53,916 nucleotides of DNA from Candidatus Gugararchaeum adminiculabundum (GTDB lineage: Archaea > Micrarchaeota > Micrarchaeia > Burarchaeales > Gugararchaeaceae). This document shows, one piece after another, positions 1 through 12,389 of this stretch. Below the pieces are notes generated by a model. The model made no database searches, was not told the DNA's origin, and saw nothing but the letters and a program-made list of their open reading frames with translations. A program made the position numbers and the translations under genes. The DNA is taken from assembly GCA_902384795.1 (NCBI GenBank), contig CABMDC010000016.1, positions 1-53,916 of the forward strand. Direction: 5' to 3'. Every line of letters begins with the position of its first letter. Within the stretch, counting starts at the first letter, position 1.

Positions 1-314
1 CTAAGCTGCATCAGTTCAGGGTTGTCCATGGAACGGAACTGGCACCAGGCGCCCACGAGCTGGTTGTTTCCGCCGATGGGCAGGCTTGTCGCATCATAGG
101 CATCGTTAAACCCGTAATAGGAGCCGCGCGAATCAATCTTGCAGATTAGCGCGGTGCAGGTGCCGGTTATGCAGGTCATCTGGGTCCCGTTCTGGCCGGT
201 CACGCTCCCGCCCAGGTTGGTCTTGAACTGGAATCCGGAACAGCCTGCGAGCGCTATTAATATTAGGAAGAACGAGGCGTACAATGCAATTTTTTTTCCG
301 AATTGTTTTTTCAT
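1..314 (-). CDS. Partial secreted lipoprotein, 3' end beyond the window
   Basis: The gene reads from an ATG at 314 towards base 1 and leaves the window after 104 codons. The product starts with a lysine-rich n-region, a hydrophobic helix of about 15 residues and a lipobox-like LIALAGC, so Cys24 is the probable lipidated residue. The visible mature part is polar, Asn/Gly-rich and has several cysteines (CITGTC, LICK, WCQF). I do not recognise the family. It is the last visible gene of the six-paralogue array and follows it after an A/T-rich leader that carries a partial copy of the shared intercistronic element. The secretion call is well supported; the function is unknown. Confidence 0.75.
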   Translation of the reverse strand, partial: MKKQFGKKIALYASFFLILIALAGCSGFQFKTNLGGSVTGQNGTQMTCITGTCTALICKIDSRGSYYGFNDAYDATSLPIGGNNQLVGAWCQFRSMDNPELMQL

Positions 315-379
315 ATTATTTTCACGTTTATTTTTCTTTTTTATTTTTTTAGTTTTTCATTTATTTTTTCTTTTTTATT

Positions 380-411
380 TTTTTAGTTTTTCTTTCTCTC
401 CATTCGGGGCC
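380..411 (-). repeat. Partial copy (C) of the intercistronic element, hairpin missing
   Basis: On the minus strand this reads GGCCCCGAATGGAGAGAAAG followed by an A-rich tract. It starts three bases after the TAA (416-414) of the upstream array gene. It matches the core of the 54-bp repeat (CCCCGAATGGAGAGAAAG) but lacks the hairpin segment. The A-rich tract then continues for about 65 nt to the ATG at 314. Confidence 0.8.
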
Positions 412-413
412 GA

Positions 414-1499
414 TTAAACCAACTTTGAAACTCCCTGTATTAAGTACGTGCTGTCCCCGCCCAGAATCGGCGTTGCCGCGCGCACGAACATTATGGTGAT
501 TGCAAGGATTATGAAAGGCTGGATCACATATTCCATGTAGAGCATGGGAATATCAGCGCCTATGCGCGTGTACAGCGGGTTCACCGCGTTGGCCTGCTCG
601 AATCCTTTTTTCAAAAGCCTGTCGGCCCCGCCCACGTCCCCGTAGCACGCTTCGTTGGGATTGAACCCGAGCAGGGTCGAGGCCGAGCCGATTTGGGCGA
701 CGGTCGTCAGGTTGAAAGTTGAGACCATGAAAAATACCGGGTAGACGATGTAGAAGCCGATGGCGATCGCTATCAGGAGCCCTCCGATTCCGCGCGTGAG
801 CGGCAGGATTCTCAGGATTATTCCGAGCGGAAGCAGGATGTTCAGCATGGAATTCTGGACAATCTCAATGAGCGTGAGTTCCGCATCCATGACTATCTGC
901 AGCTCCGAAAGCTTCCAGTTGATGAAGTGCGCGCGCTCAACGGTCGGGTGCAGGTCCCAGCCGCAGTACATCTCGACCCCGAAGAAAATCACGCACGAAT
1001 GCTCCGCGGCCTCGATGGGCGCGTTTGCCGCGAGCACCTGCATGTATAACATTTCAATGCGTATTTTGGCCTTGTTGATTTTATCGTGGACAGGGGTGTA
1101 GGGCGAAACGCCGGATAGGGTGTTTTCACGGGTTACTGCGCCGCTGCTGCACAAATCCGGCTGGGTCAGGCAGATGGATTGGAAGACCACTGTGGAAATT
1201 ATTGCAATCAGGAAAATTACCAGGAAGCCGGACGCGACCGCCTGGAGCAGCTCCCCCTGCGCCCATCTTTTCAGGGTGTCGTTCTGGATGATGACCGAAG
1301 CCATGTAAACCAGCGAAACGAAAAAGAAGCACGCAAGGACCGCGAGCAGGGCAAAGCCCATCCAGTCATAGGTGCCCCCGATTTGCCAGGCATCGGAGAG
1401 GCTGGGCGAGGTTGAGGTAGGATTAACCTGGGATGCGGCCAAAGCTGCGAACGCTAGCAAAATGAAAAACGACAATGCAAATGTTTTTTTCAGTTCCAT
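414..1499 (-). CDS. Array membrane protein 6 (polytopic, signal peptide, LLPLG motif)
   Basis: The 361-aa product has an N-terminal signal peptide, then a TM segment followed by the family motif YMASVII...RWAQGE, a second TM, and an outside loop of about 100 residues with four cysteines (residues about 110-190). Next comes the paired helix LLPLGIILRILPLTRGIGG with IAIGFYIVYP, and a C-terminal TM ending in FVRAATPILGGD. The same blocks recur in the five genes upstream, so this is a member of a tandem paralogous family. The ATG at 1499 follows a long A/G-rich leader holding the 54-bp repeat. The function is not recognised. A VirB6/TrbL/CedA-like membrane channel component is a guess from topology alone. 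Confidence 0.85.
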   Translation of the reverse strand: MELKKTFALSFFILLAFAALAASQVNPTSTSPSLSDAWQIGGTYDWMGFALLAVLACFFFVSLVYMASVIIQNDTLKRWAQGELLQAVASGFLVIFLIAIISTVVFQSICLTQPDLCSSGAVTRENTLSGVSPYTPVHDKINKAKIRIEMLYMQVLAANAPIEAAEHSCVIFFGVEMYCGWDLHPTVERAHFINWKLSELQIVMDAELTLIEIVQNSMLNILLPLGIILRILPLTRGIGGLLIAIAIGFYIVYPVFFMVSTFNLTTVAQIGSASTLLGFNPNEACYGDVGGADRLLKKGFEQANAVNPLYTRIGADIPMLYMEYVIQPFIILAITIMFVRAATPILGGDSTYLIQGVSKLV

Positions 1500-1562
1500 T
1501 TTTTCACTTTTTCATTCATTTTTCTTTTTTCATTTTTCCGTTTCTCTTTTTTCATCTTTTCC

Positions 1563-1616
1563 GTTTTCTTTCTCTCCATTCGGGGTCTCTTTCTTTTTTA
1601 AAGAAAGAGAGGCTGA
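1563..1616 (-). repeat. 54-bp intercistronic repeat, copy A (perfect match to copy B)
   Basis: The minus-strand sequence is identical over 54 bp to the plus-strand sequence at 32891-32944. It starts directly after the TGA (1619-1617) of array gene 5 with TCAGCC. It then has a hairpin with 10-bp arms (CTCTTTCTTT and AAAGAAAGAG), then CCCCGAATGGAGAGAAAG, and runs into an A/G-rich leader ahead of the ATG at 1499. Confidence 0.95.
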
Positions 1617-2534
1617 TCACACCATTTGCGCCAATCTCGATATGTCAACTTCCTGGCCGAGCATCGCTGAAAGCTGGCGCGTGAAAATTATGATTACCAG
1701 GAAATTCAGGGCAGGGAGGAAAACATTGGCGATGAAGAAAACCGCTGCATAGGTATAGGCCGTATTGCTCGTGGATTTCAATGCCGTGTAGGACAGGCCG
1801 AAGAAATTGCCGATCATCAGCCCGTTCAGGACTATCAGGAACGGGTAGAGCAGGAACAGGCCGATTGTTATTGCGATCAATGCGCTGCCGAACCCCCGCA
1901 GGAATGGCATGGAGCGGAAGAAAGTCCCGAGCGGCAGCAGTATGAGCAGTGCCCCGATTTCCAGGTATTTGAGGACCCATAGCTGGAACAGGACAGTGAA
2001 CAGGCTTAGCTGCAAACTGCTCATTGCCATGGTGAGCGCGCCGATGCGCGAGTATAATCCGGCGCCGGGCTGGATGGAATAGCCTCCCTGGAAAATGCCG
2101 CACAGGATTATGCATTTGTACTCGGATCGGGTCGCCTGCTTTTCCTGCTCGCCCACATCCGCCCGCACCATGTCGTAAAACACATAGTTCAGGTTTCTCA
2201 TTGCCACCAGCTCTTTTGTGGCGGCATCGAAATAGGTGTCACTGGGCAGCACCTTTGCCGAGGCCGGGAACGTAAGGCCTGAGAAAGACATCATATCCCC
2301 GATGTTTGTGCTGCATGCCGCGGTTATGGACACGCTTATCAGCACTATGATCATGGCGGAGATTATCGCCTGGTAGATTTCAAGCCTGCTCCAGGCCGTG
2401 ATGTTCGGGTTGCGGAACATCTGGCCAAGCATGTAGATTGCCGAGATTGCGCAGAAGGTGATGAACATGCCCACTATGGCTAGCCCCTGCCAGTCTGTAA
2501 CGCCGGCTCCCGGAATTGGACACACACCTACCAT
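1617..2534 (-). CDS. Array membrane protein 5 (polytopic, LLPLG motif)
   Basis: About 305 aa, lacking a clear cleavable signal but starting with a TM segment. Family blocks are IYMLGQMF...AWSRLE near the N-terminus, LLPLGTFFRSMPFLRGFGS followed by ITIGLFLLYP in the middle, and FTRQLSAMLGQEVD at the C-terminus. The central loop has two cysteine pairs (CSTN, CIILC). It is the shortest paralogue. Its start overlaps the end of the upstream paralogue: a TTG at 2543 overlaps that stop as TTGA, while an ATG lies at 2534; I chose the ATG. The overlap implies translational coupling. The 54-bp repeat begins directly after its TGA. Function unknown. Confidence 0.83.
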   Translation of the reverse strand: MVGVCPIPGAGVTDWQGLAIVGMFITFCAISAIYMLGQMFRNPNITAWSRLEIYQAIISAMIIVLISVSITAACSTNIGDMMSFSGLTFPASAKVLPSDTYFDAATKELVAMRNLNYVFYDMVRADVGEQEKQATRSEYKCIILCGIFQGGYSIQPGAGLYSRIGALTMAMSSLQLSLFTVLFQLWVLKYLEIGALLILLPLGTFFRSMPFLRGFGSALIAITIGLFLLYPFLIVLNGLMIGNFFGLSYTALKSTSNTAYTYAAVFFIANVFLPALNFLVIIIFTRQLSAMLGQEVDISRLAQMV

Positions 2535-2539
2535 AGTAC

Positions 2540-3700
2540 TCAACCCATTCTAACTAGCGATGAAACATCAACGTCCGCGCCCATTATCACCGCAAACCAT
2601 CGGACGAACGTGAGAGTTATGAAAATTTTCAAAGTCGGCAAAAGCACGGTCAAAATCACTGTGCGGAATACCAGCGGCTCGGAGAAACCCGGTGAGACGA
2701 GATCCGCCACAAAGTTGTTTTCCTGCACCTCGCCCCATTTATTATAGGTGGGCATGTGCACCACGGAAATCGTTGCGCCGCTCGGGTTGTGGGCCACGTA
2801 GTCAGCGAAAATATTGTACTCGACAATCACCGCGACCGGGAAAACAATATAGAAGCCCAATGCCAGCGCAATGAGCAATCCGCCTGCCGCGCGCGTGTAG
2901 GAAAATGAGCGCAGCACTATTCCGAGCGGAAGGAGCAGGGAGAACATCGAGCCTTGGAAAATTTTCAGCAGGAAATATTGCCCTTCCATGGCGGTGAGCC
3001 CGGATGAAACGGCGCTCACCGCTCCGCCCAGCGAGCCCTGGGTGTCGGAAAGATAACGTCCCTCCATTATGGAAAAGCCGCCTGCGGACATGGCGTAGCA
3101 ATAGCCGGAAACGGTGGAAACCTTGCCCACTGTTTCGGAATAGTAAGTCATTTGATTATACTGCGCGGCTAGGTAGGTGATTTGCGATTTGGTGTAGACC
3201 TGCGCAAACTGCATTGCCGAGCCTCCGCCGCTTTCCATTTTGTTTAGCTCGACAGTGGATGTGTCCAGGTCGGCAAAGCCGAGCGAACCGCCATTGTGCT
3301 TGAATTCCTTTGCCGCATCGGCTGCGATTGTTTTGCTGAAAGTGTCCACTCCGGTGACCAGCAGGATGACGAAAACAACGGTGACTGCCACCTGGAAAAT
3401 TTCCTGCTTTGCCCAGAGTTCCAGCATGGGCATTTCAAATCCCTTGCCAATCATGTAGGCCATGGAGATTACTAGGAAGGAAACGATCAATGCCGCAAAG
3501 GCGGTGGCCTGCCAGGGGAGAAAAGCCTGCTCCGCGGTTACCGGCGTTGGCGGTGGAGCCGCGAAAAGCACGGAGGAAACTGAAAGCACCAGGATTAGCG
3601 CGATGAGCAATGGCGCGAGCAGCCGCGGGGCTGCGGCAGGGCGGATTTTCGCCATTTTATTTTTCCTATTTTTTTCGTTTTTTTCTTTTTGTTTTTCCAT
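2540..3700 (-). CDS. Array membrane protein 4 (polytopic, signal peptide, LLPLG motif)
   Basis: 386 aa if translated from the ATG at 3700. This gives a highly charged N-terminus rich in Lys/Glu/Asn; an ATG at 3655 (MAKIRPAAAP) would give a more ordinary signal peptide, so the start is uncertain. A cleavable signal (residues about 25-48) is followed by AYMIGKGF...LWAKQE, an outside loop of about 130 residues rich in Gly/Ser/Tyr/Gln, the paired helix LLPLGIVLRSFSYTRAAGG with ALGFYIVFP, and the C-terminal FVRWFAVIMGADVD. All blocks match the other array members. It overlaps the next gene and lies 15 bp from the previous one, so it belongs to one transcription unit. Function unknown. Confidence 0.85.
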   Translation of the reverse strand: MEKQKEKNEKNRKNKMAKIRPAAAPRLLAPLLIALILVLSVSSVLFAAPPPTPVTAEQAFLPWQATAFAALIVSFLVISMAYMIGKGFEMPMLELWAKQEIFQVAVTVVFVILLVTGVDTFSKTIAADAAKEFKHNGGSLGFADLDTSTVELNKMESGGGSAMQFAQVYTKSQITYLAAQYNQMTYYSETVGKVSTVSGYCYAMSAGGFSIMEGRYLSDTQGSLGGAVSAVSSGLTAMEGQYFLLKIFQGSMFSLLLPLGIVLRSFSYTRAAGGLLIALALGFYIVFPVAVIVEYNIFADYVAHNPSGATISVVHMPTYNKWGEVQENNFVADLVSPGFSEPLVFRTVILTVLLPTLKIFITLTFVRWFAVIMGADVDVSSLVRMG

Positions 3701-3715
3701 GCAACCAACTTCAGC

Positions 3716-6154
3716 TTACAATAATTTCGTGATGCCCGGCAGTTCCGCATCCCCTCCGAGCAGCGGGGAGAAAATCCTGATGAATGAAATTGTCACCAGC
3801 AGGTTGAATAATGGCGCGACCAGGGAAATCACCAGCAGCCTTCCGATCATTGCAATGTCGCTGGAGTAATCCGGAGTGATCGCAGTGCCGGTGAGGCCGA
3901 TGGATGAGGGCGCGTAGTAAACTGTGGCGCCCCCTTTGTTCAGTTCGCTGTCGCCTCCGATGCAGATTGTTTCGCAATCGGGCGAGCCTCTCTTTTTGGC
4001 GGTCCCGACCCCGGCGCAGTCCGCGTCAAATTGGTCATTGGCGCTCTTGGCCGGGTCGCTAAGGCATCGGTCCTGGCTCGGGCAGCAGCCGTCGATGTGA
4101 TTGCCATACCTGCTCGCGCCGCACAGGATGATCGGTGTGGAGTAGGGGATTTGGTTGAGGCAGGCGGCAGGGCCGTGGGAGGTGTCGTACTTGGACCCTG
4201 CTGAAGGGCAGTCCGGGTCGCTGGAAACGGCATTGTTCGGGCAGCAGCCGTCGGGAGTTAAACTGGCAGGGGTGTTCTTACTGCATTTGCTCGAGCAGTC
4301 TGAATCAAACTGTATCTGGGTCGGCGCTGTTGCTCCTGGCTTGGTGATGGATTTGCATTTGTCCTGCGGAACGCAGTAGAAATCATCGGCTGTCCCGCAG
4401 TCCGCGCTCGCAGGAACCCCCTGAATCCTGCAATCGACAACCGGGCAGTCTGGCGAGCGGTACATCTGGTTCACCCTGCAGTCCGCGGTGCATCCGGTAT
4501 GCCCGGCAGCCGGAGCAGTCACTCCGCAAAGCACATCGCAGCACGCGGAAGTATGAGCGCCATTGGTTACGTCAAATTCATGGAGCGCCTTCCCGCTGTC
4601 CTTGTCGCACTGGATATTCATGCAGGATGCGGGCTGGTTTAACGGGTCCCTGCACTCTGTTGGGCAGCCGACCATGACTTTGCCCCCGTTATTGCAGCAG
4701 GGAACTGCATTGGCCATAGAATCGTACTCGCTTCCTGAAAGCTGGGGGGCCACCGCAGGGCAGAGCGCGTTTAGCTGGGTTGCATCCGCAGTGCTGGTGT
4801 CCGCGGCTTCGCGCGAAATGCACCTTTCATCGAAGGTCCAGCTCTTACATCCCTTGCACTGCCAGTTGATTTGGTCCCCAAAGAGCTTTGCAATGTAATA
4901 ATATTGCGAAGTGGAATCCTTGCTTGCGAGGTACAGGTAATCGCATCCATATTGCTCGATGATGCAATTGATGGGATCTTTTGCGAACGGGTCGCACTTG
5001 GTGCTCGCAATGCAATTCACCTGGTTGAAATTCGCACTGTTCAAATCACAGTAATCCGCATTCGGCATGGGAGGTTTTCCTCCTGCCCCGTTTCCTGCCT
5101 GGCAGAAAAGTTTCTGGGTAGTGTCAGGGGGCTTGGCCGGATCGAACGTGAAATCGCTTGGATCAGTTCCGACCTGGGTTTCGGCATTTCCATTGCATCC
5201 GTATTTTTTCAGGTTGCAGGAATCGGTGCACGCGCTCGGGGCGACAGGGGTGAGGCTTTCGCTCACGGTGAAATTCAGGTTAAGCATTATGAACCAGAGG
5301 ACATACATGAGCGGATAGATCACGAGCAGCGCGAGGCCTGTTGCCATCATCAGCCCCCCGAGCTTGCGCGTGAAAAAGAATGTGCGCAGGAATACTCCCA
5401 GCCCGAGGAATATGGGCGCGATGCCTTCGCGGATGTAATCCAAAAACCCGATCTGCGCGTCAATCGAGCCCATTATGTTTATGAGATGCGTGAACACCAG
5501 GCGGTAGCGGTCGGTCCACATGGCTTCGCCAGCCTGGGTCATGGTGCTGAAGCCTACGAACGGAATGTCCGTGTAAACAAGCCCGTGCTTGGTGGAGGAT
5601 GAGCGCGTCTTCTCGATATTTTTGTTGAGGATTATTTCGCCCAGAAGCTTGGTTGAGTCGCTTATCCCTGTCAGGTACTGGCGCGCGATGAGCACATGGC
5701 ATCCTTCGGCATGGCAGCCGGTGGAAGTGCCGGTGATCACATCCGCGAGAATGCTTGCGAAAACCACCAGGTAGGCGATGGAGATTATGATGAGCAGGGA
5801 CATCACCACATGCGAGAATTCATTTTTTGCCCAGAGGTGGATTGCGCGGCTCTGGAAAATGGAACCTGCCATGTAGGCAAGGGATACCAAGAGGAGGGAT
5901 GCCGCGACCGCAATCACTGAAACCTGTTTCCAGGAACCGGAATCCCCGAACAGCTCAAGGAATCTTCCTTCGGTGGTGGTGCATTTATTTTGGAAGCATG
6001 TGCCCTTGCAGCAATCGGCCGCAGTGGTGCACGCGGAAGGATGGCCGGTGGCATCCAATGCCGGCTTGCACTGGACCGTGTCCGCTGCGAGCAACGGGCT
6101 TGACAGTAGGAAAATTGCAATCGCGAACAATGCCAATAGTTTAAATTTTTTCAT
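3716..6154 (-). CDS. Array membrane protein 3 with giant Cys-rich extracellular insertion
   Basis: 812 aa, more than twice the length of its paralogues. After a signal peptide comes a small six-cysteine knot-like segment (residues about 28-58), then the family block AYMAGSIF...LWAKNE, and the central pair FLGLGVFLRTFFFTRKLGG with LLVIYP. Between this pair and the last TM sits an insertion of about 450 residues (about 300-750) with around 42 cysteines, in units such as PCCNNGG, ACCDVLCG, DGCCPNN and GCCPSQDRC. The C-terminus returns to the family pattern (FIRIFSPLLGGDAE). About 50 cysteines in total imply an exported, disulfide-rich domain, possibly adhesin-like or surface-exposed; that role is inferred. 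Confidence 0.85.
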   Translation of the reverse strand: MKKFKLLALFAIAIFLLSSPLLAADTVQCKPALDATGHPSACTTAADCCKGTCFQNKCTTTEGRFLELFGDSGSWKQVSVIAVAASLLLVSLAYMAGSIFQSRAIHLWAKNEFSHVVMSLLIIISIAYLVVFASILADVITGTSTGCHAEGCHVLIARQYLTGISDSTKLLGEIILNKNIEKTRSSSTKHGLVYTDIPFVGFSTMTQAGEAMWTDRYRLVFTHLINIMGSIDAQIGFLDYIREGIAPIFLGLGVFLRTFFFTRKLGGLMMATGLALLVIYPLMYVLWFIMLNLNFTVSESLTPVAPSACTDSCNLKKYGCNGNAETQVGTDPSDFTFDPAKPPDTTQKLFCQAGNGAGGKPPMPNADYCDLNSANFNQVNCIASTKCDPFAKDPINCIIEQYGCDYLYLASKDSTSQYYYIAKLFGDQINWQCKGCKSWTFDERCISREAADTSTADATQLNALCPAVAPQLSGSEYDSMANAVPCCNNGGKVMVGCPTECRDPLNQPASCMNIQCDKDSGKALHEFDVTNGAHTSACCDVLCGVTAPAAGHTGCTADCRVNQMYRSPDCPVVDCRIQGVPASADCGTADDFYCVPQDKCKSITKPGATAPTQIQFDSDCSSKCSKNTPASLTPDGCCPNNAVSSDPDCPSAGSKYDTSHGPAACLNQIPYSTPIILCGASRYGNHIDGCCPSQDRCLSDPAKSANDQFDADCAGVGTAKKRGSPDCETICIGGDSELNKGGATVYYAPSSIGLTGTAITPDYSSDIAMIGRLLVISLVAPLFNLLVTISFIRIFSPLLGGDAELPGITKLL

Positions 6155-6171
6155 GCGTGTGCCACATTTTT

Positions 6172-7224
6172 CTATTCCATCATGCCCGCATCGAATCCAT
6201 GCGATAGCATTTTTGAAAATCCCATTATGAACGAAACCGTGAGTATGATGCTGAGGTTGGGGAAGAAAACCGCCTGGGGAATCAGCCTGCCGATTGCATT
6301 GAAGGGCAGGTACAGGTCCGGGTTCCAGTTTAGGTCGCTGACTATTTTAGCCGTCTGCGCATCCTTTGGATTGTCGATCTCATTGATTACCTGCCCGTTA
6401 ACCACGTAGGTGAGCGGGAATACGATGTAGAATCCGATGGCAACCGCGATGATGAAATCCGCAGTCCCGCGCATGTAGGGAATCAGCCTGAGCACGAAAC
6501 CCAGCGGGAGCAGGTAAACCCAGGCGAATGACTGGATCCCCTCAAGCAATATCCTCTGCACCCTCAGGCTCGCGATCATGGGGATGAGCAAATCGGTTGC
6601 CGCATCCTGCGATTCGGCATATGCCTTTTTCTCCCCGTGGCGCGCTATGCCGCTTCCTCCAAGAAGCGGGGGCGAGGAGTAGGTGAAATCAGTCGCCCAT
6701 AGCCGGTTGTCAAAGCTTCCCTGAACCAGGCTGACCACAAGGGGGACTCCTTCGCGCGAAATCAGCTTGTCCAGGTATTCCTCTGCAACGCAGATGTGCG
6801 ATTTGTCGGAATGGGCGATGGAGGAGGCCGCGGTTGCGAGCGCGACCGAACCTACAACCACTGCGAAAATCATAAGGCCTGACATGAACGTTTCGGAAAT
6901 TTCCGCCTTGACCCAGGCCTCTGCGCCATGGTTCTGGGTCAGCTGGCTGATCATGAAGGCGACTGCCAGGAAAAAGGAAACAAACACCACGGCAATCGCA
7001 AGAAGGGAGGACTGCTCTGCAAAGGAAACATAGGAGGGGATGTCGCATTCGTTCATAACCAGGGGCTTGGTGGAGGCCGCGGTTCCGTAGCCTTGCGCAG
7101 CCACGCTAGGGGCCGCAAAAATAATTGCCAGGAAAATGAACAGCACTGCTGCGAGCGCTGCGGAGTTGCGCTTCCAGGCGCCGGGTTTTTCTTTTTTATT
7201 TTTTTCCATTTTATTTTCCCGCAT
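6172..7224 (-). CDS. Array membrane protein 2 (polytopic, signal peptide, LLPLG motif)
   Basis: 350 aa. A lysine-rich start (ATG 7224; an alternative ATG at 7209) precedes a signal peptide ending near VAAQG. Then come a TM with AFMISQLT...AWVKAE, an outside loop of about 110 residues, the pair LLPLGFVLRLIPYMRGTAD with AIGFYIVFP, and a C-terminal TM with FIMGFSKMLSHGFD, the most divergent version of the terminal LGGD motif. The leader is A-rich (repeated GAAAA units), as in other array genes. It lies 17 bp upstream of the Cys-rich paralogue and 32 bp downstream of the first paralogue. It is part of the same operon by spacing. Function unknown. Confidence 0.85.
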   Translation of the reverse strand: MRENKMEKNKKEKPGAWKRNSAALAAVLFIFLAIIFAAPSVAAQGYGTAASTKPLVMNECDIPSYVSFAEQSSLLAIAVVFVSFFLAVAFMISQLTQNHGAEAWVKAEISETFMSGLMIFAVVVGSVALATAASSIAHSDKSHICVAEEYLDKLISREGVPLVVSLVQGSFDNRLWATDFTYSSPPLLGGSGIARHGEKKAYAESQDAATDLLIPMIASLRVQRILLEGIQSFAWVYLLPLGFVLRLIPYMRGTADFIIAVAIGFYIVFPLTYVVNGQVINEIDNPKDAQTAKIVSDLNWNPDLYLPFNAIGRLIPQAVFFPNLSIILTVSFIMGFSKMLSHGFDAGMME

Positions 7225-7256
7225 GTTTTCAGCTCATTTTCCGATTCCTCAAGCCA

Positions 7257-8441
7257 TCATACTATCTTGAACAAACCGATGATGTTCGTGTCCCCGCCGA
7301 TCATTTTCGAAATGTTTGTGATGCTGGTGACGGTTATGAAAATGCTGAGTATTGGGAGTATGAAAGTGATGGCCGAAATCCTTGCAACCGCCGGAAGGAC
7401 GCTGTTTGCCAAGGGCCAGTAAACCTGTGAAACGCTGATGTTGGCGTACGCTATGAGCGTTGGAACCGCGGCGATAAGGAAGCCCATGCTGAGCCAGTTG
7501 AACCAGACCATCACTCCCGCATGGCAGCCCCAGAAGCATATCCAGAAGTGCGGGCCCGCGCACTGGGGAATGCACTTGATCAGTGTCCACAGCCACTGGC
7601 CGAGCGAAATCATGAACTGCATCGTCTGGTCGCACATGTATTTCGGAGGCGGCGGAAGGTCCTTGGGAAGCGCGACTGCGCTCGGGTCGATTCTCGGGAC
7701 AGAGTAGTAGATGTTGCCTGCGAGCACGACCGTGAGCGGGAATACGATATACATGCCGATGGCAATGGCGATGATTGTGCTTCCCAGCTTTCTTGTGATG
7801 GAGAATGCGCGCATCAGGATTCCCAGCGGGAGCAGGAACCGGAACGCGTTGTACTCGAAAATTTTCAGGAACAGCTTTTCAGCGGTGTTGAATGCGACCC
7901 CGTTGGAAAGAGCGTTCACACCCTGGGAGACTCCGATGGAAACCAGGGAGATTCCGCCGCTCGGGGACATGGAAAAAATGCCTGCCACATACCAGCCCGG
8001 GGTCGCTATATTATAGCTGAAAGTGGTGTATTTGACAAGAATCTTTTCCGCCTCAAGAAGCCGGAGATACATGCGAGCCATGTAATCGCTGGACTCGTCG
8101 AGATAGGCATAGGCCATTTTGAAATAGTTTCTTACCTCGACGGTTGAACCGAACACGGTCGCGGACTGGGAAACCGGGGCGCCCATTGCCGTTGGAATCT
8201 GGGCGGCGTATTGCTCGTAGAACAGGCTCCCGAAATTGTCGGCCAGGGGCACGATTAGCGACGCAAGAAGCGAAACCAGGAGTATGCTTATCACTGCCTC
8301 GCGGAACTCGACTTTTGCAAACGCCTCCAAATGGGGGCTTTGGAATATCCTCGAAGCCATGAAGGAGATGGCGACAACTAGGATAGAAACCATTGAGCAC
8401 GCAAATGTTAATGGAAGCCATGCCGCTAGTAAATCCGCCAC
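7257..8441 (-). CDS. Array membrane protein 1 (polytopic, LLPLG motif), first gene of the array
   Basis: 394 aa from a GTG at 8441, preceded by a G-rich SD-like stretch. It lacks a separate signal peptide; the first TM carries SFMASRIF...AFAKVE, the weakest match to the WAK.E block. A loop of about 140 residues leads to the pair LLPLGILMRAFSITRKLGS with AIGMYIVFP. Then comes an extra Cys/Trp-rich loop (CDQT, CIPQC, CFWGCH; about residues 270-310) and a final TM with SITNISKMIGGDTN. As the most upstream paralogue it probably follows the operon promoter, which would lie between it and the multi-hairpin element at 8500-8603. Function unknown. Confidence 0.85.
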   Translation of the reverse strand: MADLLAAWLPLTFACSMVSILVVAISFMASRIFQSPHLEAFAKVEFREAVISILLVSLLASLIVPLADNFGSLFYEQYAAQIPTAMGAPVSQSATVFGSTVEVRNYFKMAYAYLDESSDYMARMYLRLLEAEKILVKYTTFSYNIATPGWYVAGIFSMSPSGGISLVSIGVSQGVNALSNGVAFNTAEKLFLKIFEYNAFRFLLPLGILMRAFSITRKLGSTIIAIAIGMYIVFPLTVVLAGNIYYSVPRIDPSAVALPKDLPPPPKYMCDQTMQFMISLGQWLWTLIKCIPQCAGPHFWICFWGCHAGVMVWFNWLSMGFLIAAVPTLIAYANISVSQVYWPLANSVLPAVARISAITFILPILSIFITVTSITNISKMIGGDTNIIGLFKIV

Positions 8442-8499
8442 TCACCAACCCCCTTTATCCGAGAATACTTTATTCGAGCTATTAAAAAACCTATCTGCT

Positions 8500-8603
8500 G
8501 TGATGGCGCCGCCGATATGGCGGTTGCGTTCTGGAGAACGCAAGTCTGCCCTCGAAGCAGACCAATCGTGCTTCGAAGCACGATTGCCGCGGCGCGCCAT
8601 CAC
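8500..8603. other. Multi-hairpin element: closed by a 10-bp stem and filled with four hairpins
   Basis: Bases 8500-8509 (GTGATGGCGC) pair perfectly with 8594-8603 (GCGCCATCAC). Inside are four hairpins: 8510-8522 (CGCC/GGCG, 5-nt loop), 8524-8543 (TTGCGTTC, loop TGGA, GAACGCAA), 8544-8562 (GTCTGC, 7-nt loop, GCAGAC) and 8563-8586 (a 24-nt perfect palindrome, CAATCGTGC stem around TTCGAA). The last three abut with no linker. It could be a structured RNA, a MITE-like element with terminal inverted repeats, or a cruciform-forming site. It sits in the 187-bp gap between two minus-strand genes. No coding potential is evident. Confidence 0.85.
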
Positions 8604-8628
8604 TAACACTGCCCTGCTCCTTCTTCGC

Positions 8629-9432
8629 CTAATTCAACGGGGGAGCTGCCACATCCTTTACCACAAACCCGGGCGGGACTTGGAAAATGGAATCCGAGAA
8701 ATCTGCGAAGGTCACGTTTTTTGCCTGGATCACCGCAGAACCGTATTGGGTGTCCACCTGCATTTTGAGGATTATACCTTTTTCCTTCCAGACCCAGGCG
8801 GTCACTGTTTCACTGGAAGAGGGGTTTGAATACTCGTAGACTTCGGTGGGCACTCCGAACAGGTCCCTGGTGCCGAGGTAGGTTTCCTTTCCCTCTATTT
8901 TTGCCCCCTGGGCATAGGTTTGCGGGTTCGGGTCGCTGAGGCGCGATGCCGTCTTTTGCTCGGAGTTCAGGAAATAGACCGTGCCGTTTTCGCTATCGAT
9001 CAGGGTCACCATGTTGGACTGGTATTCGCCCCAACCGCCCATGGACTCGCGCCTTGTCTTGTTTCCCTTGACAAAAACGCGGGCGCTGTCCATGTCTATG
9101 CCGTTCATGGAAATCACCTCGTCATAGGAGAAGGAGGTGAAATTCCTGGAAAGCGCGGCATCTATCTTATAGTCCTGCGCCCCCTGCTCGTCCGTGGGAG
9201 TGGCGCCCGGGAAAACCGGGGTCGGTGAGCCAGGGGATGAAGAATTTGCATTGGTGCCATTCGGGCCGCTTGTGATGTTCGAACTTGCATTGGGCAGGAT
9301 TGAGAACGGCGAGGCTTCCAGGTCAGGATTGTACTTGCCGGGCGAGTCCGGAGGAGAGACGAAATAGTTAAGGCACCCTGCGGAGAAGAGCGAAACTGCA
9401 AGAAGCAGGATGAGCAAGGCGTGTTTTCCCAT
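8629..9432 (-). CDS. Secreted lipoprotein, LolA-like or DUF-type fold possible
   Basis: 267 aa from the ATG at 9432, ahead of which no stronger start is seen. A hydrophobic signal ends in LFSAGC, a lipobox, so Cys near residue 20 is probably the membrane anchor. A low-complexity Asn/Ser/Pro/Gly linker (residues about 30-85, with many N-x-S/T sites) leads to a beta-rich domain with alternating hydrophobic strands (SFSYDEVISMNGIDMD; VTAWVWKEKGIILKMQVD). That layout resembles LolA/LppX-type outer-leaflet lipid-binding proteins, but the match is only impressionistic. It is divergent from the pilin-like gene at 9494 and upstream of the array on the same strand, separated from it by the multi-hairpin element. 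Confidence 0.75.
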   Translation of the reverse strand: MGKHALLILLLAVSLFSAGCLNYFVSPPDSPGKYNPDLEASPFSILPNASSNITSGPNGTNANSSSPGSPTPVFPGATPTDEQGAQDYKIDAALSRNFTSFSYDEVISMNGIDMDSARVFVKGNKTRRESMGGWGEYQSNMVTLIDSENGTVYFLNSEQKTASRLSDPNPQTYAQGAKIEGKETYLGTRDLFGVPTEVYEYSNPSSSETVTAWVWKEKGIILKMQVDTQYGSAVIQAKNVTFADFSDSIFQVPPGFVVKDVAAPPLN

Positions 9433-9463
9433 TTTTCCCACAAACAAACTTCAGCCAAGAAAG

Positions 9464-9473
9464 CTTATAAATA
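9464..9473 (+). promoter_or_regulatory. TATA box for the pilin-like gene at 9494
   Basis: CTTATAAATA is centred about 26 nt before the ATG at 9494. The transcript would therefore start at or next to the start codon, the usual archaeal leaderless arrangement. Confidence 0.65.
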
Positions 9474-9493
9474 TTGAAAAGAGAAACCATTCC

Positions 9494-10096
9494 ATGAATT
9501 CGATGAAAGGGCAGAGCAAGGCTCTGGAACTCGTTGTTGCGCTTTTTGTTTTGCTTATTGTTGCGTGGCTGGTGATTTCGCTGGTGACGCAATTTTTCAA
9601 CAAGGGGCAGACTAATATTAGCGGCCAGATTGATGAGCTGAAAGAAAACCAGCTCATTGATTCCGCGAAACAGGAATGCGAGCAGAAATGCAGCGCCATC
9701 AAGAGCGCGAGCGGAAGTGAGGGAAAAATTGTTGATTTCTGTTCCGGAGTCCCGCAATCCGCAGGAAGCGGGCTGCTGATCGGAAGCGCAACGAATGCGA
9801 CCGGAAAAAGCGGCTATGCCGAATTGAACGGAGTAGGAATCTGCCGCGAGAGCGTGCCTTGTTTTGAATTGATTGACTGCGCCTACCCCGAGGGAAGCCA
9901 GAAGATTGACGCGGCAGCGTGCAAGAGGAACATTTGCGCCTACTATTCAACGCTCCTTACTAGCGACCAGAGGGTCGATGAGGAACTGAACAAGAGGATA
10001 TTGCCGGGCAAGTGCTACAAGAGCACAATGGACTTGCACTGGTATGCGATTGCGTTCGGAGCCAAGGATGCGGGAACGCTGACTTGCGGCGGATGA
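9494..10096 (+). CDS. Pilin-like membrane-anchored secreted protein
   Basis: 200 aa. The N-terminus MNSMKGQSKALELVV resembles an archaeal class III prepilin signal: a short positive n-region, then G followed by Q.....E, then a hydrophobic helix of about 20 residues. EppA-type processing before the Gln is likely. The mature part has several cysteines (CEQKC, FCSG, CAYPEG, CKRN, LTCGG), suggesting disulfides. The ATG at 9494 was chosen over upstream starts because a TATA box sits 26 nt before it. The last 21 bases recur in imperfect form at 11434-11454 beyond the AbiE genes. Role: minor pilin or pseudopilin is inferred from the signal only. Confidence 0.72.
   Translation: MNSMKGQSKALELVVALFVLLIVAWLVISLVTQFFNKGQTNISGQIDELKENQLIDSAKQECEQKCSAIKSASGSEGKIVDFCSGVPQSAGSGLLIGSATNATGKSGYAELNGVGICRESVPCFELIDCAYPEGSQKIDAAACKRNICAYYSTLLTSDQRVDEELNKRILPGKCYKSTMDLHWYAIAFGAKDAGTLTCGG
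10076..10096 (+). repeat. Left direct repeat flanking the AbiE module
   Basis: This 21-bp end of the pilin-like gene (ACGCTGAC.TGC.GCGGAT.A) matches 11434-11454 at 18 of 21 positions. The toxin-antitoxin genes lie exactly between the two copies. It could be a target-site or attachment-site duplication, or the relic of a duplicated gene end. Confidence 0.6.
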
Positions 10097-10098
10097 GA

Positions 10099-10683
10099 TT
10101 AGCCCAGTTTGGCCAGTTTTTTTACTTTTCTTCGGGTTATTTCAGGGCAGCGCTTCAGGTATTCAAGCAATTTTTTCCTGTCCAAATTTTTCCTCAGCCC
10201 TGCGAGCGCTTCATTGCTCAAAGGCTCGTTGAAGTAGGCGAAGTCTATGAGCGTTTTTTCGTTGTCTGAAACCGGAATCCAGAAGTCCTTGTACCTCATG
10301 GTGGTGAAACCGAAAAACATTTTCCTTGCGATTCTTCTGACAACAAAATTTGAGCCTTCAAACTGCCTGACTCCACTTCTCACTTTCCTCGGGGTTAGCA
10401 CAATCGGGTTTGTTTCCTGCTCCCACAGGTTTTTGAGTGAGAGGGCTTCCTGCAACCCGTAATAAAAAGGCGTGAAGCCGAAGCCCACGGTCTCCGATTC
10501 ATCCAGGAAAGTGTAGACTCCCCGGGAAATTTTCTTGATTTCGCCGCTTTTAACCAGGTTGTGGATCAACAGGTACAGGTAATTTTTGCTGATTTTTTTT
10601 GTTCCGAGAAAAACCTGCAAGTCCGAAATGGTGAAAGCAGGAAGGCTGCCAAATTTTTCGCGCACTTCGCTTAGGTACTTCAT
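10099..10683 (-). CDS. AbiEi-like antitoxin / transcriptional regulator
   Basis: 194 aa. Residues about 1-65 form a winged-helix domain (FTISDLQVFLG, then NYLYLLIHNLVKSGEIKKISRGVYTFL). This is typical of AbiEi/COG5340 antitoxins, which autoregulate their operon. The C-terminal half (VRRIARKMFFGFTTM, VSDNEKTLIDFAYF) matches the usual AbiEi C-terminal region with the ekTliD motif. Its ATG overlaps the toxin stop by 4 bp (ATGA). The order is unusual: the nucleotidyltransferase gene comes first, whereas abiEi normally precedes abiEii. The likely operator is the inverted repeat at 11341-11372. The family call is from sequence pattern; neutralising activity is inferred. Confidence 0.82.
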   Translation of the reverse strand: MKYLSEVREKFGSLPAFTISDLQVFLGTKKISKNYLYLLIHNLVKSGEIKKISRGVYTFLDESETVGFGFTPFYYGLQEALSLKNLWEQETNPIVLTPRKVRSGVRQFEGSNFVVRRIARKMFFGFTTMRYKDFWIPVSDNEKTLIDFAYFNEPLSNEALAGLRKNLDRKKLLEYLKRCPEITRRKVKKLAKLG

Positions 10684-11327
10684 GCGAACCGCCCCTGCAA
10701 AAATTCGACCATTTGTTTAAACGAAGGGATGTTTCCGGAATAAACTATCGCCTTCAGGTTCTTCTCATCAACAGGAGGCTTGATTGATTTGAGAAGCAGC
10801 AGGACCCGCTGCTTTGCCTTAGGTTCGCCTTTGACAAAATTTGAAAGGTGGAAAATGTCGTAAATGTCGCGCACAAATAGCCTGTTGGCGTAGGCATCGC
10901 ATTTTTCCAGAATAAGGTCTTCAGGCGAAAGCGTTAGCACACTCATGAACGAGCCGTCAATTTTTTCAAACGGCTTTGCAACCGGGGGGGCAGGCTTTGA
11001 TGAAAAATTTATCTCAACGCGGACTTGCATGTCAGCGCCTGAAACCTTGCAGAAGATTAAGTTCCCGGTTTTCTTGAACTTGTCAACATTAAGCCCCCGG
11101 GCTTCAAGCCTTTCCTTCAGCCCCTCTTCAACTTTTGTTGCATCGCTGCAATAAAAATCCAGGTCTTCGGAAAACCTGTTGCCACCATAGCAGCGCCAGA
11201 CTGCAGTGCCACCGTGAAAAACCAGCCTGTTTTCCAGGGAATACAAAACTTCCGTTACCTCGTCCTGCAAGAGCCCCACGTCGATGTGTGCCCTTTTCTT
11301 CAACCTCTTCTCGAGCGGGATGTTCAT
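10680..11327 (-). CDS. AbiEii-like nucleotidyltransferase toxin
   Basis: 215 aa from the ATG at 11327; a TTG at 11342 is less likely because the TATA box would then overlap the leader. It carries the polymerase-beta-type NTase signature: HGGTAVWR at residues 38-45 and SEDLDFY at 53-59, with Asp55 and Asp57 as metal ligands. Downstream come the family's ...SPEDLILEKCDAY..R...RDIYDIFHL block (about residues 135-165). AbiEii toxins transfer nucleotides to tRNA or other targets in type IV toxin-antitoxin systems. Translation is coupled to the AbiEi gene through ATGA. Flanking direct repeats suggest the pair arrived as a unit. Confidence 0.85.
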   Translation of the reverse strand: MNIPLEKRLKKRAHIDVGLLQDEVTEVLYSLENRLVFHGGTAVWRCYGGNRFSEDLDFYCSDATKVEEGLKERLEARGLNVDKFKKTGNLIFCKVSGADMQVRVEINFSSKPAPPVAKPFEKIDGSFMSVLTLSPEDLILEKCDAYANRLFVRDIYDIFHLSNFVKGEPKAKQRVLLLLKSIKPPVDEKNLKAIVYSGNIPSFKQMVEFLQGRFA

Positions 11328-11340
11328 GCATATATTAAGC

Positions 11341-11372
11341 AACCAAACATATAAAAAACTATAAGTTTGGTT
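11341..11372 (-). promoter_or_regulatory. AbiE promoter with inverted-repeat operator
   Basis: A perfect 8-bp inverted repeat, AACCAAAC at 11341-11348 and GTTTGGTT at 11365-11372, brackets an A/T-rich core holding a minus-strand TATA-like sequence (TTTTTTATAT). The core lies about 25 nt upstream of the toxin ATG (11327). AbiEi antitoxins are known to bind inverted repeats in their own promoter, so this is a strong operator candidate. Confidence 0.7.
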
Positions 11373-11846: not shown

Positions 11847-12389
11847 ATGCGCTTACGCAAAGGCTCAACGGCTCCGTCATCCTGGATTTGGATTATCGGC
11901 GGGCTAATTTTAGCGGTGATTACCATAGCCATAGTCTGGCAATTGTTCGCAAACATGAGCCTGGGCTTTGCACGCAACAATGCGAGAAGCGAATTCCAGA
12001 ATTTCGTGGGCAGGGTTGAATCGATGTGCTCCAGCGTTTCCGTGGGCTCGAAAATGACATTTGAAATGAAACTGCCGAACGTGGTGGAAGCGGCCTATGC
12101 TTCCATTTCCCCGGGATTTGTCCCTGGGAATATCACGGAGTTCGTGGGAAGCCCGTACAATACCGGCGGGGTTTCAAACGGCGATTATGTGTGCATGAAA
12201 CTGCAGGGGGAAACAGAGCCCAGGTGCGAGAAGCTTGACTGCGATGTCACCATGAATTATCTGGGAACGCCGCCTGCCGGGAGCTTTTTCGACCAGATGC
12301 AAAGGGCGGCCGGCTCGCAGAATTTCGAGTATGAAATCACCATTGAAAAACAGGGAAGCACGATTATGGTCTATGACAAGAGAAAGTGA
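11847..12389 (+). CDS. Pilin-like anchored secreted protein
   Basis: 180 aa. A short basic n-region (MRLRKGS) is followed by one hydrophobic helix (about residues 12-33) and an extracytoplasmic domain with four cysteines (CSS, VCMK, RCEKLDC). The signal lacks the perfect Q.S.E motif, so it may be a plain signal anchor or a divergent prepilin. It is the first of three co-oriented genes (to 13975), the next being 72 bp downstream. Like its neighbours it has one N-terminal helix and a soluble outer domain, the plan of minor pilins. Not recognised beyond that. Confidence 0.7.
   Translation: MRLRKGSTAPSSWIWIIGGLILAVITIAIVWQLFANMSLGFARNNARSEFQNFVGRVESMCSSVSVGSKMTFEMKLPNVVEAAYASISPGFVPGNITEFVGSPYNTGGVSNGDYVCMKLQGETEPRCEKLDCDVTMNYLGTPPAGSFFDQMQRAAGSQNFEYEITIEKQGSTIMVYDKRK

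Follow-up and report, generated by a model that had tools for sequence, protein, structure and literature searches.

What role is played by a membrane protein of Candidatus Gugararchaeum adminiculabundum (Micrarchaeota) in which 50 cysteine (Cys) residues are found, most of them in one loop? The question is raised by gene 3 of an array of six paralogous genes at the end of contig CABMDC010000016.1, of which positions 1 to 53,916 were analysed (the window; contig C16 from base 1, a contig end, in a genome of 1.47 Mb on 26 contigs). Contigs of this genome are denoted by C, genomes by G (its own and those of 59 relatives, 60 in total), and array loci or other loci by L. The product of gene 3 was assigned, with a probability of about two in three, as the third subunit of a membrane complex built from six paralogues, within a Ced-like machine for type IV secretion or DNA transfer in the Micrarchaeota. 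The assignment is based on what was observed of gene structure, conservation, positional orthology, the order of the cysteines, and co-occurrence with ATPase and VirB2-like genes in the 51 of the 60 genomes that bear the array family. Statements drawn from papers cited by PMC number refer to excerpts of these.

Gene 3 and its parts are located as follows:
3716..6154, minus strand: gene 3 of the array, 812 residues, 50 Cys; VirB6/CedA-like core with a Cys-rich insert predicted to be extracellular
5978..6073, minus strand: N-terminal Cys cluster of gene 3, about residues 28-59, 6 Cys; weak match to UPF0506 under the cut-off (E 0.026)
3875..5254, minus strand: Cys-rich insert of gene 3, residues 301-760, 42 Cys, predicted extracellular, without a known fold
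3761..3865, minus strand: last transmembrane (TM) helix of gene 3, residues 764-798, with a conserved motif ending in LGGD

The gene starts with ATG and is an open frame of 812 codons without stops. Hydrophobic segments were located at residues 75-101, 112-144, 244-262, 265-295, and 765-796, in addition to an N-terminal signal-like stretch. The insert (460 residues) separates the TM3/TM4 pair from the last TM helix and lies between the fourth and fifth hydrophobic segments; the remaining eight Cys are found in the N-terminal segment (six) and in the TM2-TM3 loop (two). By profile mapping, the TM4-TM5 loop comprises 475 residues with 42 Cys, compared with 18-103 residues and 0-5 Cys in the five paralogues of the window, and the runner-up among the open reading frames (ORFs) of at least 200 residues in the window contains 12 Cys. 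The original prediction, made from the sequence of the window, had described an insertion of about 450 residues and 42 Cys, about 50 Cys in total, between the central helix pair and the last TM helix of a retained core, and these points were borne out. It had also named an assembly artefact as a possible refutation. Foreign sequence joined into a normal gene, or a chance ORF, is a reading for which the fragmentation of the assembly is the single argument; against it, the same kind of insert was found at the same position in gene 3 orthologues of many other, independent assemblies, the insert, at 0.68, resembles the gene 3 core (0.70) and the neighbouring genes (0.64-0.73) in third-position GC content, and the frame is uninterrupted. 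Orthologues and codon composition thus rule out an artefact or chance origin, the probability of which was put at practically nil.

The other members of the array, and the sequence beyond it, are:
7257..8441, minus strand: gene 1, 394 residues
6172..7224, minus strand: gene 2, 350 residues
2540..3700, minus strand: gene 4, 386 residues; AlphaFold2 model with VirB6 (TrwI) among its closest solved folds
1617..2543, minus strand: gene 5, 308 residues
414..1499, minus strand: gene 6, 361 residues; weak CedE match (NF053657, E 4.2e-5, below the curated cut-off)
1..413, no strand: contig end, at which the site of a giant Cys-rich lipoprotein gene of relatives is cut off

The six genes (414-8441) are paralogous and lie on the same strand with gaps of 32, 17, 15, -4, and 117 nucleotides. 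A second six-gene array, without the Cys-rich insert, is present on contig C1 of the same genome. GTDB contigs were scanned, and the 43 loci obtained bear the titles Candidatus Micrarchaeota, Burarchaeum, 'ainarchaeum', or unnamed archaea. After nine duplicate loci had been dropped, 56 distinct arrays were retained, 42 of them complete and six-membered; the other 14 mostly run into a contig end, with a gene broken in frame in L058 and seven matches, some of them partial, in L086. Gene 3 is the Cys-richest gene in 32 of the 42 complete arrays and holds at least 20 Cys in 31 of them. In the sample used for the Cys patterns, which was confined to the complete six-gene arrays of L073-L115 and the window (32 arrays), 23-106 Cys were counted in 26 gene 3 proteins. 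The array is a fixed six-gene unit found across the Micrarchaeota, and the Cys-rich insert of gene 3 is class-wide and no oddity. The Cys content, previously called exceptional, is perhaps so for archaeal membrane proteins generally but not inside this family; both the class-wide insert and the Ced/type IV resemblance had been missed. Cys-rich expansions were also observed in other subunits elsewhere, namely in gene 1 of L067, L068, and L082 (28-45 Cys) and in gene 5 of L069 (38 Cys), so the extension probably arose in more than one subunit. In G041 and G044, members of a family otherwise devoid of the array, a single array match (E 1.1e-13 and 2.4e-8, respectively) is kept together with a diverged copy of the ATPase; the system may persist there in a reduced or divergent version.

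To examine orthology, 125 core domains drawn from 22 loci were placed in a tree (LG+G4, quick search), which grouped them by array position 1-6 with six changes, the minimum being five and the mean for shuffled labels 76.3; rows of the long-branched array L071 are the exceptions. In every positional group, most arrays with a Cys-rich gene 3 (the window, L053-L056, L058-L066, and L070) are split from L021, L057, L067-L069, and L071. The position-wise grouping indicates that the six paralogues diverged before the lineages did and that each array was passed on or duplicated as a whole, a pattern that would be expected of six parts of one complex.

The affinity of this complex was sought with profiles and with folds. 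CedA and CedE are VirB6 homologues, and CedB and CedD are VirB4/HerA-like (PMC11868833, PMC9905601). When 108 array proteins were scanned against NCBIfam (E<=0.01), CedE was matched by seven and CedA by three (best values 4.2e-5 and 2.7e-4), and these were the sole families matched by more than one of the 108; ten other proteins, several of them polytopic membrane proteins, gave no match to CedE or CedA. The AlphaFold2 model of gene 4 (predicted local distance difference test score, pLDDT, 83.8; predicted template modelling score 0.77) contains seven helices after a signal-like part, of which 1, 2, 5, 6, and 7 are hydrophobic. The helix order is the same in TrwI, the VirB6 protein of R388, in which helices 1, 2, 5, 6, and 7 of seven are mostly hydrophobic (PMC9259494), and the array proteins are likewise predicted to have five hydrophobic helices of about seven with an outer region between helices 2 and 5. 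In the VIA comparison with solved folds, TrwI was ranked 2, 3, and 4 for gene 4 (Z 8.5, 8.1, and 8.0 for 7o3v, 8rt9, and 8rtd; 236, 245, and 161 residues; root-mean-square deviation 7.2, 7.3, and 3.7) and 3 and 4 for gene 3 (Z 7.9 and 7.6 for 8rtd and 7o3v; 220 and 233 residues; 5.3 and 5.2); non-VirB6 chains of equal Z were set aside by judgement as unrelated helical proteins. It is concluded that the array proteins work like, and probably are, strongly diverged VirB6/CedA-type channel proteins; a type IV/Ced affinity of the array is strongly inferred.

Putative partners of the array were then compared across the genomes. An ATPase of 523 residues encoded on C19 is matched by AAA_10, DUF87, and P-loop_TraG, and its best NCBIfam matches are CedD (8.6e-22) and CedB (2.4e-20), both below the equivalog cut-offs. 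It was found (E<1e-50, a cut-off chosen after the list had been seen) in 50 of the 51 array-bearing genomes, the miss being a genome of 73% completeness, and in none of the nine array-less ones; the weaker matches in G024 and G058 (1.6e-17 and 3.6e-20) were taken as large VirB4, and G038 was scored as present from a partial match at a contig end. Small two-helix VirB2-like proteins are encoded in 49 of the 51 array-bearing genomes and in none of the nine others. This family gave a PDB profile match to TrwL with E 0.03, while NorA was matched with 0.022, and a Pfam match to T4SS_pilin with E 0.049. A hidden Markov model search with the array profile also picked up two pilin-like proteins of L057, which align with the N-terminal third of that profile (E 8.4e-5 and 4.5e-11); the comparison of single pilin-like proteins with the array profile by hhalign gave low probabilities (6.5 and 0.3). 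The N-terminus of CedA similarly resembles the pilin CedA1 (PMC9905601). An array ORF of 518 residues in L113 (9455-11011) also matches the small VirB2-like family, which suggests either the fusion of a channel subunit with a pilin-like domain or N-terminal helices that resemble a pilin.

In L057 and L071 the parts are adjacent, in the order small two-helix protein(s), six array genes, two proteins of about 275 residues, ATPase, and a protein of about 100 residues, after which come a short, zinc-finger-looking Cys-pair protein and a relative of the PCI-domain protein of C19; a protein of about 250 residues is also encoded upstream of the array. A protein of about 99 residues that repeats the C-terminal end of the 523-residue ATPase directly follows the ATPase in some families (L057 17283-17582, several loci). 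By coordinates, the ATPase is also near the array in G004, G007, G011, G014, G015, and G041. These neighbourhoods bear on the reading in which the six paralogues form a surface or adhesion complex specific to Micrarchaeota that is merely gained and lost together with type IV machines, takes no part in transport, and bears the insert as a host-binding adhesin or envelope anchor. The weak sequence link to VirB6/CedA would suit such a complex, as would the large, variable, predicted surface-exposed insert and giant lipoprotein; it is nevertheless judged quite unlikely in view of the adjoining ATPase and VirB2-like genes, the similarity of the ATPase to CedD/CedB, and the near-perfect co-occurrence.

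A conventional large VirB4 was rejected as the partner of the array. PF19044, found at E<=1e-8 in 25 of 60 genomes when large VirB4 and the smaller ATPase are counted together, does not track the array; large VirB4 is strong in the array-less G024 and G058, and its copy in the genome under study lies in a separate conjugation-like cluster on C7. This cluster (L123, C7:57001-77000, positions 4719-11046) is near a gene for a type III restriction subunit and encodes two short proteins that are VirB2-like by eye, exported-looking proteins of 527 and 347 residues, a weakly PrgI-like protein of 358 residues, and a VirB4 of 798 residues.

Several results weigh against the assignment to a Ced-like machine. 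No meaningful Pfam match was obtained, and no curated VirB6, CedA, or CedE profile was matched above its cut-off: the CedE and CedA matches are far under these values, as in window gene 6 with 23.5 bits against a curated cut-off of 400 bits. Sequence homology to VirB6 was not detected by profile comparison, since hhalign against eight plasmid VirB6 proteins (R388-type) gave no similarity (probability 0.14). A VIA Z of about 8 is a level common for helical folds, at which unrelated chains (an IncA mutant, a designed repeat) tie with TrwI, and Foldseek returned nothing significant (top matches unrelated, the best with E 0.57). The co-occurrence of ATPase and array has a Fisher value of 7e-10 in which kinship is ignored, and seven of the nine array-less genomes belong to three families. 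In the genome under study, much of the L057/L071 set is on C19 without the array, so that ATPase cluster and array are on different contigs. VirB6 of R388 is a homopentamer (PMC9259494) and not a hetero-six assembly. The structure prediction originally proposed for the insertion was run in AlphaFold2 with an input of 25 sequences; most of the core was modelled with pLDDT 80-93, but the insert was left unfolded at about 30. Among the 32 complete arrays in the Cys-pattern sample, 15 have a gene 3 with an odd number of Cys in total, and an oxidase discussed below was not found.

Within the proposed Ced-like machine, the fixed order and number of the array genes suggest that one copy of each paralogue could be assembled into a hetero-oligomeric ring above the Ced/VirB4/HerA-type ATPase. 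ATPases of this type are hexamers. The ATPase would power the ring, and the small VirB2-like proteins would serve as pilin or as lining or extension of the channel. Alternatively, the six paralogues might be distributed over several distinct oligomers or constitute alternative channels, much as CedA and CedE of Saccharolobus are functionally separated, with different roles in import and export (PMC11868833); the presence of two arrays in one genome would also be in keeping with this. The tight same-strand spacing given above, the constant number and order, and the one-to-one orthology are unlike independent channel duplications, and separate oligomers are regarded as rather unlikely. The fuller proposal, by which the VirB6 channel was turned long ago into a hetero-hexameric ring whose six subunits cannot replace one another, which has been maintained and duplicated as a whole, and in which one subunit bears an asymmetric disulfide-rich crown as the organ of contact with partner cells, is tentative and was given somewhat less than even odds. 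The one-copy-each ring, a role in contact, and the substrate are inferred.

The side of the membrane on which the insert lies was derived from loops mapped by means of the profile, the contents of Cys and of lysine plus arginine (K/R) being calculated per loop over all rows. The TM1-TM2 loop contains 0.19% Cys and 12.7% K/R, and the TM3-TM4 turn 0.00% Cys and 18.4% K/R. Cys contents of 4.5% in the N-terminus, 1.5% in the TM2-TM3 loop, and 5.9% in the TM4-TM5 loop were found, with K/R at about 6% in these. The C-terminal Cys total of this count (122) stems from rows outside complete arrays, in which the mapping is unreliable. In 33 complete arrays the TM4-TM5 loop of gene 3 has a mean length of 410 residues with 34.7 Cys, compared with 35-130 residues and 1.2-4.0 Cys in the other genes. 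The paralogue core would thus have its N-terminus outside, five hydrophobic helices, an outer region of about 100 residues between the second and third of these, and its C-terminus inside. Positive-inside enrichment of K/R and avoidance of Cys in the loops predicted as cytoplasmic argue strongly for an insert outside the cell; a cytoplasmic domain, the other possible refutation named at the outset, does not agree with these contents.

Cys patterns were counted in the 26 gene 3 proteins with at least 20 Cys and compared with shuffles, related sequences being counted repeatedly. CPxxC[RK] was found 118 times (0.6 in shuffles), CPxxC 147 times (8.0), and C-x3-C 275 times (99), whereas CC (8 vs 100) and CxC (2 vs 99.5) are avoided. 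This enrichment and avoidance indicates that the insert is an array of patterned modules rather than the result of random Cys enrichment; the window copy is among the less regular ones. No Pfam family was found within the insert and no PDB chain matched it at E<=1, so that a known Cys-rich family was rejected.

The Cys residues could be ligands of metal, in zinc-ribbon-like knuckles or iron-sulfur clusters of a metal-binding or redox domain, and not a disulfide scaffold. The strong enrichment of CPxxC, to which similar motifs are known from metal-binding domains, would agree with this. So would the failure to find VKOR, which was looked for in the genome. Metal binding is considered improbable, given that the insert is predicted outside the membrane, that the enriched spacing is C-x3-C while C-x2-C, the usual zinc knuckle spacing, occurs only once in the window insert, that histidine is scarce (5 in 460 residues), and that the genome encodes exported DsbA-like proteins that contain CPFC. 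The predicted location and the DsbA-like proteins suggest disulfides rather than metal. Of the oxidising export with many disulfides that had been proposed, together with a search for DsbA- or VKOR-type oxidase genes, the outer location and the DsbA-like proteins stand; VKOR was not found.

On the assumption of disulfides, the CPxxC[R/K]-type modules in the last outer loop of subunit 3 would most likely make up a crown on the outer side of the membrane that is kept rigid by disulfide bonds. In 21 of 31 complete arrays (L073-L115 only, duplicates of L053-L070 still being included), all of them with a Cys-rich gene 3, gene 6 is directly followed by a gene for a giant Cys-rich protein that begins with a lipobox-like sequence. 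In five of the 31 arrays the readable sequence does not extend far enough (a piece of the protein is visible in L089), and the protein is absent after gene 6 in L101, L106, L112, and L113 (gene 3 with fewer than 20 Cys) as well as in L091, an array of the second type whose gene 3 has 23 Cys; in L112 a match is found elsewhere in the locus. Crown and giant lipoprotein may line a passage through the cell envelope or dock on a partner cell, and the gene 3 product is a candidate point of contact with other cells. The earlier description of this protein as the face of the array is in accord with its usual large, predicted extracellular domain and with the lipoprotein gene that usually follows the array; a receptor or adhesin role of the insert is possible, and the toxin-like role was dropped because no toxin signature was found. 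A remote relative of the giant lipoprotein in the same genome (L201 on C10, 6352-9282; 976 residues, 44 Cys, C-terminal Peptidase_M23, lipoprotein-like) is a candidate for an envelope-cutting part of the machine.

The nearest known systems are Ced of the Sulfolobales and Ted of the Thermoproteales, which are also reduced archaeal type IV apparatuses with VirB6-like membrane proteins (five TM helices in CedE), a VirB4/HerA-like ATPase, and small two-helix pilin-like proteins. They differ in having one or two paralogues instead of six; the large outer domain of subunit 3 with its many Cys and the giant Cys-rich lipoprotein belong to the present system, which is of another phylum. The words DPANN and Micrarchae- are absent from both Ced papers (PMC9905601, PMC11868833). 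Large hydrophilic domains are borne by the 'extended VirB6' proteins (PMC12857230), as by gene 3, but TrwI has no detectable sequence similarity to the array and is a homopentamer, and a Cys-rich insert is not mentioned for TrwI or extended VirB6 in the excerpts. The rvhB6a-e proteins of Rickettsiales are likewise tandem, strongly diverged VirB6 paralogues with large extensions and are clustered with VirB4; they are bacterial and five in number, their extensions flank the domain, and no Cys-rich domain is mentioned in the excerpt (PMC2653234). In nanohaloarchaea, which are DPANN symbionts too, giant SPEARE-type proteins with a VirB4/TraG ATPase domain join a giant outer region to a type IV-like apparatus proposed for host contact (PMC10266531); here a single immunoglobulin-domain protein is fused to the ATPase, in contrast to a channel of six subunits, one of them bearing a Cys-rich loop. 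For none of these systems do the excerpts describe six positional orthologues combined with an outer loop rich in Cys. A term search of PMC12892359, PMC8407392, and PMC7308576 gave no passage on such a system, and no description of the array was found in the open-access literature, to which the search was confined (preprints and subscription papers being outside its scope). If the reading is true, a type IV apparatus whose membrane ring is built of differentiated subunits would apparently be new.

Little is known about the molecular means by which DPANN archaea contact other cells, feed on them, or exchange DNA with them, and the co-inherited ATPase, VirB2-like proteins, and six VirB6-like paralogues provide a concrete candidate machine for most sampled Micrarchaeota. 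A ring of six different subunits, if real, would differ from the homo-oligomers known from type IV stalks and would illustrate how a channel ring becomes asymmetric; the Cys-rich subunit is the obvious part to be studied structurally or by labelling.

Beside the array, two short proteins with an N-terminal hydrophobic helix after a short charged stretch are encoded on the opposite strand (9410-10096 and 11847-12389, plus strand); by eye, they look like archaeal pilins with type III signals. Between them lie two adjoining ORFs (10099-11342, minus strand) that resemble, again by eye, a toxin-antitoxin pair of the AbiEi/AbiEii type.

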